Below, piece by piece: positions 13,991 through 18,437 of a stretch of 29,922 nt of DNA. Both the position numbers and the translations under genes were made by a program. The stretch comes from a virus, in the IMG/VR virus record IMGVR_UViG_3300029309_000232, positions 1 through 29,922 of that record; one strand, given 5' to 3'. Positions within the stretch are counted from its first letter, which is position 1, and each line of letters starts with the position of its first letter. The notes below the pieces were generated by a model. The model was not told where the DNA came from and did no database searches. It worked only from the letters and a program-made list of their open reading frames with translations.

Positions 13991-14081
13991 ATACGTCAGC
14001 ATACCCCGCTATACCGGGTATGCGCTTTCGTTAGCTTTTCTTGCCGGTTTGATCTTAGGAGGATTATTTAGTGTCGTTTAA
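13914..14081 (+). CDS. Membrane microprotein hidden in an overlap (55 aa)
   Basis: ATG 13914 follows AAGGAGG by 6 nt, one of the best ribosome sites in the window, although it lies within the DUF3310 gene. The product begins MSRKTWLKVLGTFGLPEATI and ends in one clear membrane segment, YALSLAFLAGLILGGLFSVV (residues 36-55). The basic N-terminus suggests it faces the cytoplasm. The stop overlaps the GTG start of the exonuclease gene by 11 bp, so it bridges two genes by coupling. It could be a holin-like or superinfection-exclusion protein, or a membrane anchor for replication; the sequence does not decide. Confidence 0.65.
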   Translation: MSRKTWLKVLGTFGLPEATILDWITRYVSIPRYTGYALSLAFLAGLILGGLFSVV

Positions 14082-14841
14082 AGAAGGTGTCTTTGAGGGC
14101 CTCAGTTATGAGGAGTATGCAGCAATCAAAGCGTGGAGATCTCACGATCTGACAACCATCATCGCTGATCCTTACACATGGAAAAACCAGAAAGAGATGG
14201 TGCAAACCCCAGCTCTCTTAGAAGGCAGAGTTCAACACACTGTCTTTCTTGAGCTGGATAAGTTCAATGATGAGTTTGTAATAGAACCAAAGTTCGACCG
14301 CCGCACTAAGGCGGGTAAGGATGAATACGAAGATTTCATGAGCAGCCTTGGTGATCGCACACCGATCAAACAAGAACTGTTTGATGTGTGTATGGATCGT
14401 CGTGAGGTCGTGCTGGATCATGTGCCAAGTGATGATGACAAGGTGGAGCTCACGCTTTGTTTCATGTGGAATGGCAAGAAATGTAAGGCCCGTTTGGATT
14501 GGTACGATGGATCAAACATCTGGGACTTAAAGACTTGCCGGGATGCAAGCCCTCGAGGTTTTACAGCAGCAATCCGAAACTTCCGTTACTACCAGCAAGC
14601 AGCTTTCTACCTGATGGGTTGCAAGATCCTTGGCATGGAGGCAGAAAAGTTTTTCTTTCTGGCTCAACAGAAAGCACATCCCTATCCGTATCTCATATAC
14701 ACATTGTCGGATGAGGCAGTGACTTACGGAGATGCGAAGAACGAACAGGCTATGCAGATCGCTGAAGAGTGTAGTCGTCAGGGCAAATGGTTGCCATTCA
14801 ACCATGGCGGTATTGTGACCGTGGATGCCACTCAGCTTTGA
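14071..14841 (+). CDS. RecE-like PD-(D/E)XK exonuclease (DUF3799 type)
   Basis: The 256-aa protein shows the YqaJ/RecE pattern: LLEGRVQHTVFLE with His56, KARLDWYDGSNIWDLKTCR with Asp143 and Asp152-x-Lys154, and the RYYQQAAFY helix (172-180). This fold degrades the 5' strand of double-stranded ends to give 3' tails for annealing. GTG 14071 is the start, with TAGGAGGA upstream. It lies with the SSB-like gene and may cooperate with it in recombination-dependent replication; no separate annealase gene is seen in the window. Its stop overlaps the TTG start proposed for the methyltransferase. Confidence 0.8.
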   Translation: MSFKEGVFEGLSYEEYAAIKAWRSHDLTTIIADPYTWKNQKEMVQTPALLEGRVQHTVFLELDKFNDEFVIEPKFDRRTKAGKDEYEDFMSSLGDRTPIKQELFDVCMDRREVVLDHVPSDDDKVELTLCFMWNGKKCKARLDWYDGSNIWDLKTCRDASPRGFTAAIRNFRYYQQAAFYLMGCKILGMEAEKFFFLAQQKAHPYPYLIYTLSDEAVTYGDAKNEQAMQIAEECSRQGKWLPFNHGGIVTVDATQL

Positions 14842-15929
14842 GATTCCTAGACCTGTTCAGTGGCATAGGAGGCTTTTCGCTGGGGTTAGAATCCGTCGGT
14901 ATGGAAACAGTTGCTTTCTGTGAGATGGATAAATTCTGTCAGAAGGTGTTAAAAAAGCATTGGCCTGATGTGCCGATACACTCAGATATAAAGGAGCTAG
15001 ATGGTTATGAGTACAGAGGAGCAGTTGAGCTTGTTTGCGGCGGGTTCCCCTGCCAGCCTTACTCCGTTGCCGGGGAGCAGAGAGGCTCTCTCGATGACCG
15101 CGCACTCTGGCCGGAAATGTTGCGAGTCATATCAGAGGTTCAGCCAACTTGGGTCATTGGCGAAAATGTTTCTGGAATCATCAACATGGAACTCGACAAC
15201 GTGCTATCTGACTTGGAAGCCCAAAGTTACCAATCACAATGCTTTGTACTTCCAGCTTGCGCCGTCGATGCCAAGCACAGAAGAGATAGAGTCTTCATTA
15301 TTTCATACGCCGACCGCCAAGGCGAACCAGATGAGCCCACACGAAGTCAAGAAAGGGAGCGGTTTTTGGCCAACTCCGGATGCAAGTCCGAGGGGATCCA
15401 GGGCAACGGATCTAGTGGTGAACGAGTCTACAGTTCAAAGAAGGAACAGCAGTCAGAAAAGAGGAATGGATCTACAGACAGCAGCCAAATTATGGCCAAC
15501 CCCGACAGCAAACCTATCTGGGGAGGCAGACTTCATGGAGAGTCTTGTAACGAAAGATGGGAAACCAGCGCAACCGGGGGAGAGAGCTTACAGTCCCAAG
15601 TCGGGAAAGCACACATCCATCAGTCTGAATCGAGCGGTCAAGATGTGGCCTACTCCCGTGGCACACGAGGCGAGGCTGGGTTATCAAGACAGGAGCCGTG
15701 GGAAGAAAGGAACTCAGGAGAGCTTGATTACAACGGTCATCAACAATCTCGGAGGGAGGAAGTCTGTGAGTGGCTCACTGAACCCGGCGTGGGTAGAGTG
15801 GCTGATGGGGTTCCCAATCGGACACACCGACTTAGAGGATTAGGCAATGCGGTTGTACCGCAACTCGTAGCCGAAATAGGTAGGATCGTTATGTACCACC
15901 ACGAGAACAACATTGACCCCAGAGGATGA
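14838..15929 (+). CDS. DNA (cytosine-5) methyltransferase
   Basis: From TTG 14838 the product reads MRFLDLFSGIGGFSLGLESV (motif I, AdoMet binding), then GGFPCQPYSVAG with the catalytic Cys72 (motif IV), GENVSG (motif VI), HRRDRVFI (motif VIII) and GLGNAVVPQ (motif X). All catalytic motifs are intact, so the enzyme should be active. The target-recognition region (about 160-330) is unusually polar and low in hydrophobics, and a second gene is read through it in another frame. The TTG overlaps the previous stop (TTGA); ATG 14787 is an alternative that would add 17 residues inside the exonuclease gene. No restriction endonuclease is nearby, so protection from host restriction is the likely role. 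Target sequence unknown. Confidence 0.88.
   Translation: MRFLDLFSGIGGFSLGLESVGMETVAFCEMDKFCQKVLKKHWPDVPIHSDIKELDGYEYRGAVELVCGGFPCQPYSVAGEQRGSLDDRALWPEMLRVISEVQPTWVIGENVSGIINMELDNVLSDLEAQSYQSQCFVLPACAVDAKHRRDRVFIISYADRQGEPDEPTRSQERERFLANSGCKSEGIQGNGSSGERVYSSKKEQQSEKRNGSTDSSQIMANPDSKPIWGGRLHGESCNERWETSATGGESLQSQVGKAHIHQSESSGQDVAYSRGTRGEAGLSRQEPWEERNSGELDYNGHQQSRREEVCEWLTEPGVGRVADGVPNRTHRLRGLGNAVVPQLVAEIGRIVMYHHENNIDPRG
15001..15843 (+). CDS. Nested gene in a second frame of the methyltransferase (280 aa)
   Basis: The frame opens at ATG 15001, 4 nt after a perfect AAGGAG, with a second in-frame ATG at 15007. It runs 280 codons inside the methyltransferase gene. The product has recurrent WPTP blocks (FWPTPDA, LWPTPTA, MWPTPVA) and ends LNPAWVEWLMGFPIGHTDLE. 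I recognise this ending and the WPTP repeats from phage proteins of unknown function encoded beside or within C5 methyltransferase genes. The ribosome site and family-like ending support real translation; a conserved shadow of the methyltransferase frame is the alternative. The role is unknown; a partner of the methyltransferase is a guess. Confidence 0.6.
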   Translation: MVMSTEEQLSLFAAGSPASLTPLPGSREALSMTAHSGRKCCESYQRFSQLGSLAKMFLESSTWNSTTCYLTWKPKVTNHNALYFQLAPSMPSTEEIESSLFHTPTAKANQMSPHEVKKGSGFWPTPDASPRGSRATDLVVNESTVQRRNSSQKRGMDLQTAAKLWPTPTANLSGEADFMESLVTKDGKPAQPGERAYSPKSGKHTSISLNRAVKMWPTPVAHEARLGYQDRSRGKKGTQESLITTVINNLGGRKSVSGSLNPAWVEWLMGFPIGHTDLED

Positions 15930-17705: not shown

Positions 17706-18437
17706 TTACTCACTCTTTCCATCAAAGAGCCAGAACACCAACAGGTAGCGATCACCTTTTTCGACCGCTAATCCTCTGTGCATTTTGGTAAAGGAGGGAA
17801 ACATTAGTGCGTGTCCGTTAGGCAACGGCTTCAACACACCATGGTTGTGGAACTCTGTGCCACCACCGACGTAACCGCCAGTGTTAAGTGGAACGACAAC
17901 AGAGATGTCAGCAGAGTCATCATGATGCCAGGCTCCGGCTTGCTGACCCTCTGGATTGTAGTTCGCGATCTGAACTGACGCTATCTGAGCACAATCACGC
18001 TGAAACAAACTGTAGATCATCGGGTTGATCACATTCTGCACGACGAACCACATATTCCAATACAGCTCTGGGCAATGCTCTTCTAGCACGATCTCTGGTA
18101 TCTGTCGCAACGGATCCTCACTGGGATTCGGTTTAAACTCGATCTCCTTCTCCATCTGTTTGATCTCTTCAACCAGCATCTTGCAGAACTGTCTACGGAA
18201 CAAAGGGAATCTATATATGTCAGGGAACACAGACTTAGCCATCTGAGCCGCTGGGGTCGTTTCTAAGCGATTTCTCCCTAAATTGGCTCTGTACTTAGCA
18301 ATCAACGGTATCGAGTCTTGTACGGCCTTATATAAAGGCTGGTTTACCATCCAATGAGATTGGAGGCTCAACATATAGTTCTTGAGTTGATACATAGTGT
18401 TTTGCAAAAAAATGCCCAAGACTATACAATTTAACAT
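17706..18437 (-). CDS. 2-oxoglutarate/Fe(II)-dependent oxygenase
   Basis: The C-terminal half is a double-stranded beta-helix oxygenase: AWHHDDSADISVVVPLN with the H-x-D iron ligands (His171/Asp173 or His172/Asp174), GGGTEFHNHG, the distal ligand His220 in KMHRG, and Arg230 in GDRYLLVFW for 2-oxoglutarate. Residues 1-120 are helical and unassigned. Marine phages often carry such enzymes; substrates could be DNA bases, protein side chains or small molecules. No ribosome site is evident at 18437; Met15 (18395) is an alternative, as the upstream part overlaps the promoter of the divergent gene. It is separated from the downstream operon by 89 bp. Confidence 0.8.
   Translation of the reverse strand: MLNCIVLGIFLQNTMYQLKNYMLSLQSHWMVNQPLYKAVQDSIPLIAKYRANLGRNRLETTPAAQMAKSVFPDIYRFPLFRRQFCKMLVEEIKQMEKEIEFKPNPSEDPLRQIPEIVLEEHCPELYWNMWFVVQNVINPMIYSLFQRDCAQIASVQIANYNPEGQQAGAWHHDDSADISVVVPLNTGGYVGGGTEFHNHGVLKPLPNGHALMFPSFTKMHRGLAVEKGDRYLLVFWLFDGKSE
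18402..18430 (+). promoter_or_regulatory. Promoter of the ribbon-helix-helix gene
   Basis: TTGCAA (18402-18407), a 17-bp spacer and TACAAT (18425-18430) lie 29 bp before the ATG at 18460. It overlaps the 5' end of the divergent oxygenase gene, so regulation of one could affect the other. Confidence 0.5.

Follow-up and report, generated by a model that had tools for sequence, protein, structure and literature searches.

The window, by which we mean the whole stretch of 29,922 nucleotides that was analysed, is an IMG/VR virus record (IMGVR_UViG_3300029309_000232) with phage primase/helicase and virion genes that also carries a C5 cytosine methyltransferase (MTase) locus. The MTase ORF was listed as 14787-15929, and the start supported by an alignment with 26 homologues is the TTG at 14838. 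Because the homologues point to this codon and because its TTGA overlaps the stop of the preceding exonuclease-like gene, we placed the start there, resulting in a large polypeptide of 363 aa, termed alpha (14838..15929, + strand), that matches PF00145 (1.8e-45), TIGR00675 (3.5e-35) and PHROG_363 (7.8e-80). The preceding gene (14071..14841, + strand) encodes a PDDEXK exonuclease of the DUF3799 or exonuclease VIII-like type (PF12684, 4.2e-19; PHROG_412, 3e-56). A 2OG-Fe(II) oxygenase-like gene (17706-18437, - strand; PHROG_61, 1.9e-24) is located near the MTase locus, and no adjoining restriction nuclease was recognised among the neighbouring genes examined.

Within alpha, and in the +1 frame relative to it, lies a second ORF of 280 codons with an ATG start, termed beta (15001..15843, + strand; PHROG_1008, 2.4e-31). 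The initial annotation had proposed a nested gene of this length in a second MTase frame, and both its coordinates and the ORF itself are correct. It had also pointed to an internal AAGGAG/ATG start signal, which is equally present: the Shine-Dalgarno-like AAGGAG (14991..14996, + strand) is located 4 nt ahead of ATG 15001 and 10 nt ahead of ATG 15007, both of which are possible starts of beta. Across 139 distinct loci, an ATG with a strong Shine-Dalgarno sequence was found at the start of beta in 55, compared to 12.7 expected.

According to the homologue alignment, alpha contains the AdoMet-binding motif I (DLFSGIGG, 14850..14873), motif IV with the catalytic Cys (PCQPYSVAG, 15048..15074), motif VI (ENV, 15162..15170), motif VIII (HRRDRVF, 15276..15296) and motif X (GNAVVPQ, 15843..15863), all on the + strand, the last of which begins at the last base of the beta stop and is read in alpha only. 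In all 26 homologues, motifs I, IV (PCQ), VI (ENV), VIII and X are on alpha, in this order, and invariant. Between motif VIII and the W...EP...R...GNAVVPQ block, however, the alignment of alpha shows nothing conserved, no target-recognition domain (TRD) and no motif IX; this polar linker (15300..15779, + strand) has no conserved columns, and invariant residues reappear only with W312, E315, P316 and R320. The MTase frame had been described as intact and equipped with all catalytic motifs, which does not apply to a polypeptide that lacks motif IX and a conserved TRD and is thus not self-sufficient.

What alpha lacks is present in beta, in which (W/L)PTPxAxDxK repeats are followed by LNPxWVEWLMGFPxGWTDL as the equivalent of motif IX. 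In the window, the TRD of beta (15298..15774, + strand) consists of four xTP units (FHTPTAK, WPTPDAS, WPTPTAN and WPTPVAH), the same repeats that separate motif VIII from motif IX in the single-chain Gordonia phage Sanjuju gp4 and in Mycobacterium phage Peaches gp76, and its motif IX equivalent is LNPAWVEWLMGFPIGHTDLE (15778..15837, + strand). Most beta members have one to five (W/L)xTP units ahead of this ending. In a profile-profile comparison of relatives comprising the TRD and motifs IX and X with conventional C5 MTases, LNPxWVEWLMGFP aligned with LTxRExaRLQsFP and GNAV with GNAV in a collinear manner (P=3.2e-5). The profile of beta alone also aligned at motif IX when compared with a small set of conventional templates, a weak match of no significance by itself, and with a larger template set the alignment was at motif X of fused members only. 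Taken together, alpha and beta contain the motif IX and the TRD that a C5 MTase (PF00145) has between motifs VIII and X.

Relatives in which the same parts are arranged differently connect the two polypeptides. In the loci L117, L025, L023/L191, L018, L108 and L199, alpha ends just past motif VIII, and beta continues in the same frame, covering the LNPxWVEWLMGFP block and then motif X. In Peaches, gp77 contains motifs I-VIII, and the consecutive gene gp76 contains LPTP repeats, a motif IX-like block and motif X (beta HMM, 1.9e-15; PHROG_1008, 1.7e-79). The single chains of Sanjuju (gp4) and Mycobacterium phage Tweety (gp72) read in one frame through motifs I-VIII, then LPTP repeats, then the IX-like block and finally motif X, and their C-terminal halves match PHROG_1008, the family of the window beta, at 3.5e-67 and 3.9e-51, respectively; the beta HMM matches Sanjuju gp4 at 1.6e-9. 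Because the split, consecutive-gene and single-chain relatives have like parts, we regard beta as the missing half of alpha.

A different explanation for beta would be an overprinted protein with no relation to the MTase, such as an inhibitor or a host-takeover protein, that is merely housed in the MTase gene. In line with this explanation, profile searches of Pfam, NCBIfam and PDB with beta gave no match, and Foldseek comparison of beta models with the PDB yielded no C5 MTase structure and no meaningful match. The two underlying AlphaFold models of beta alone, made for the window beta and the short beta of L146, had pLDDT values of 62 and 55 and pTM values of 0.33 and 0.28; such poor models would be expected for half a domain, yet they lend no support. 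Against an unrelated protein stand the observations that in single-chain and split C5 MTases the half comprising the TRD, IX and X belongs to the family of beta, that motif X is located on alpha in some loci and on beta in others, and that beta has exactly what alpha is missing. In addition, every beta match in 20 bacterial genomes accompanies a PF00145 match, and among these genomes and all gathered loci there were no stand-alone beta genes: homologues away from any MTase, which had been suggested as a check, were absent, and all homologues are nested in alpha, encoded by the next gene or part of the C-terminal half of a single-chain MTase. We therefore give the unrelated protein a very slim chance. 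Among the roles initially considered for the nested protein, that of a partner or specificity factor of the MTase is supported, and the single-chain and split relatives and the complementarity of the motifs speak against that of an inhibitor.

To follow the two frames across loci, we gathered 146 IMG/VR loci that resembled the nested protein, 30 loci that resembled the MTase frame, 10 phage records and 80 loci from bacterial genomes. Because most of these loci were collected via beta similarity, the constant co-occurrence of alpha and beta is partly a matter of selection, but all 30 loci collected via alpha similarity also carry beta. Apart from a few loci broken by indels, the nested frame is located inside or overlaps the MTase frame with the same +1 offset in all gathered loci, and homologous loci with a nested frame broken by stops next to an intact MTase were not found. 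L092 and L158 (contig IMGVR_UViG_3300030102_005181, with 94% identity to the window) are nearly identical to the window locus except for the loss of 17 bases just past motif IV, which disrupts alpha as well as beta; this is either a pseudogene or an assembly error. The C-terminal halves are exchanged in L153, L154 and L260 by a frame change within the stretch where both frames code, resulting in a beta N-terminal part joined to the motif X of alpha and a beta motif IX block that stands alone in the next frame.

The expected number of stops was obtained by shuffling synonymous codons. When alpha-synonymous codons of the window were shuffled, 7.1 stops were predicted in the nested frame, which was open in none of 200 shuffles, whereas the real sequence has none. 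Over the 139 distinct loci, no nested-frame stop was observed compared to 813 expected, and the third frame is unconstrained, with 1931 stops observed versus 2042 expected. Conversely, when beta-synonymous codons were shuffled in 144 loci, 604 stops were expected in the alpha frame of the TRD stretch, and none was observed. Because the expected stops are absent under both shufflings, we conclude that both frames are held open, and the dual-coding overlap assumed in the initial annotation is borne out. The corresponding frame of the conventional single-chain E. coli dcm and of two streptococcal phage MTases contains 14, 11 and 25 stops, respectively.

These counts bear on the possibility that the nested frame is not a gene but a by-product of the conserved codons and composition of alpha. 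In the +1 frame, the PCQPFS motif of alpha is bound to read SPASLS, and alpha thereby dictates part of the conservation of the beta N-terminus, but the complete lack of nested-frame stops against 813 expected is not explained in this way, and the TRD stretch is conserved in beta and not in alpha, with changes falling on the third codon position of beta. A by-product therefore has next to no chance of being the correct explanation.

The distribution of substitutions was determined for 69 independent pairs of related loci and is given by alpha codon positions 1/2/3, where alpha position 1 corresponds to beta position 3. It was 22/12/66% in the alpha-only 5′ part, 33/18/50% in the catalytic overlap, 68/18/14% in the TRD overlap (68% on the third position of beta and 14% on that of alpha), 61/19/20% in the IX/X overlap and 16/9/76% in the alpha-only 3′ part, with a chi-square of 929 for the TRD versus the alpha-only spectra. 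The nearest relatives of the window gave 10/1/2 (L158) and 35/8/3 (L159) substitutions in the TRD/IX overlap and 5/0/18 and 3/0/12, respectively, in the alpha-only parts. Because substitutions beyond motif VIII fall on the third codon position of beta, beta is the selected frame there: it evolves as a coding gene does, with the MTase frame as its passenger. Constraint acts on both frames in the catalytic part and is stronger on alpha. The initial annotation had noted a polar, low-complexity region of the MTase at the overlap and regarded it as a target-recognition region constrained by dual coding. The region has this composition, but because the ANSG/ANPD/AYSR repeats of alpha are the other frame of the WPTP repeats of beta, it is a passenger of the nested frame and not a squeezed TRD.

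The same data address whether beta is made separately. A programmed +1 frameshift near the end of motif VIII could fuse the N-terminal half of alpha to the TRD and motif IX of beta, with alpha proper as a by-product. Such fusion would agree with the order in which the parts are joined in single-chain relatives and with a register that is always +1, and in the split loci the shift would yield a complete conventional MTase. However, a frameshift needs no open beta frame upstream, yet this frame is open for approximately 100 codons across the catalytic region in essentially all loci, the substitutions in the catalytic overlap are shifted relative to the alpha-only part (33/18/50 versus 22/12/66), and the Shine-Dalgarno sequence with ATG is enriched at the start of beta. 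Furthermore, the fused chain of nested loci would be without motif X, which stays on alpha. We consider a frameshift distinctly unlikely and favour an independently started beta.

Altogether, these results are best explained by one two-polypeptide C5 cytosine MTase, in which alpha would be the catalytic polypeptide and the independently started, nested beta the subunit with the TRD and motif IX, and we hold this explanation to be very probable. At the sequence level, the open frames, the selection on beta in the TRD, the complementarity of the motifs and the relatives with like parts in like order are established. Alpha would bind AdoMet and hold the catalytic cysteine and the flipped base through motifs I, IV, VI, VIII and X, and would cross the TRD-coding stretch merely as a stop-free linker to motif X. 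Translation of beta would begin separately, at position 15001 within the alpha message and in the +1 frame, and beta would bring the WPTPxAxDxK units of the TRD and motif IX, which in C5 MTases organises the small (target-recognition) domain. We infer that alpha and beta associate as a heterodimer to form the complete enzyme and that both polypeptides are needed for activity. In a phage without a linked nuclease, this enzyme would most likely mark the phage DNA against host restriction.

Two-polypeptide C5 MTases are known. The polypeptides of M.EcoHK31I are approximately 38 and 23 kDa in size, which fits alpha and beta of the window, and in 1995, Lee, Kam and Shaw reportedly described an alternative frame inside its alpha as the one encoding beta; if so, the window, with beta (15001-15843) in the +1 frame inside alpha (14838-15929), has the same layout. 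M.EcoHK31I has been termed naturally split (PMC3439449), and the section of PMC3404938 that deals with this enzyme (YGGCCR) assigns motifs I-VIII and X to the large and motif IX to the small polypeptide, the same division as in the window, so the arrangement is not new in kind, contrary to the initial suggestion. That section assigns the TRD, as a prediction, to the large polypeptide, unlike the window, in which the 68/18/14 selection and the single-chain relatives, with their TRD in the beta frame, put it on beta; because the placement on the large polypeptide is given there as a prediction only, it is perhaps not truly defining. M.EcoHK31I is also part of a restriction-modification system, whereas the window locus shows no linked nuclease. 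In our analysis, the window is best called a member of the M.EcoHK31I kind on the basis of gene layout and motif division. A search for an EcoHK31I-like copy in 5,426 E. coli genomes turned up relatives of the Guernseyvirinae form in prophages, none of which was identified as EcoHK31I.

M.AquI (CYCGRG) consists of two subunits cut between motifs VIII and IX, within the variable region that they share, with motifs IX and X on the second, small polypeptide (PMC3404938). It works like the split relatives L117, L018, L025 and Peaches gp77/gp76, and a motif X on the second polypeptide is found in these as well as in L108 and L199. In the window, unlike in M.AquI, motif X remains on alpha, and beta is fully nested.

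On a catalytic-domain tree, at least eight changes among single, split and nested forms are required, although the tree was built quickly and sequencing frameshifts may account for some of the differences between single and split forms. One strongly supported clade contains both nested and split forms, and another contains both single and split forms. L342, split after motif VIII, and L343, a single ORF of 747 aa, are sister sequences with nearly alike catalytic domains and represent a useful pair for recent fission or fusion. More distant nested-type loci with minimal TRDs are L271 (Mycobacterium phage Zerg gp69) and L319 (a Stenotrophomonas phage), whose nested frames end in RPNPTWLAWLMGFPVEW and YLNPCFGDWVMGWVTGW, respectively. 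In the downstream gene of L117 (4105-4725), which contains short tandem repeats (VYGDAQVCDNAQ...), a second frame is also open.

Similarity to beta was found in at least 590 viral stretches and in 386 stretches of bacterial genomes, and the 80 genome loci kept from the latter cover 12 named bacterial phyla. The nested form is thus present in hundreds of phage and prophage loci in one fixed register, with beta mostly unannotated. Depositors noticed beta in Paenibacillus phage Shelly (SHELLY_56, 'g55 internal gene') and Escherichia phage K1ind2 (ORF28, 'putative Mte8-like protein'), in both cases with no function given. PHROG_1008, which matches the window beta, Peaches gp76 and the C-terminal halves of Sanjuju and Tweety, is labelled 'DNA methyltransferase', and this label is silent on its being the TRD/motif IX(/X) half and on the nesting of its members in PHROG_363. 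Literature searches did not find a widespread nested form of this breadth or a TRD on beta described, and although two-polypeptide C5 MTases as a kind are already known, these two aspects appear undocumented in the searched literature.

A prophage of E. coli XYEH3314 (NZ_CP110988.1; L352:2318-3530) has an open alpha of 404 aa with a nested beta of 343 aa, but RefSeq lists this intact alpha as two pseudogenes, each a partial DNA cytosine methyltransferase, and leaves beta unannotated; beta is likewise unannotated in E. coli O103:H2 12009 (L351) and A16 (L353). Five copies of the nested locus are present in OX638333.1 of an uncultured Roseovarius (L211-L215) and three in Lihuaxuella thermophila DSM 46701 (L204-L206), probably as repeated prophages or other mobile elements.

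Many records annotate alpha alone as a complete MTase and thereby omit the half that would decide the target site; because of this omission, specificity predictions and heterologous expression based on alpha-only annotations would fail. If our interpretation is true, the TRD of M.EcoHK31I, an enzyme used in targeted methylation work, would be expected on its beta polypeptide too. Somewhat less firmly, we lean towards the view that these loci form a class of C5 MTases of phages and prophages, spread over at least 12 phyla, in which the recognition subunit is nested in a fixed register, the centre of alpha is a stop-free passenger, and single, split and nested forms have been interconverted repeatedly. 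Every gain, loss or exchange of WPTP units would then have to preserve two open frames simultaneously. Prokaryotes rarely have a same-strand nested gene of this length in which both frames are clearly selected and of which hundreds of natural copies exist, and the nested MTase loci would be a clean test bed for the evolution of overlapping genes.
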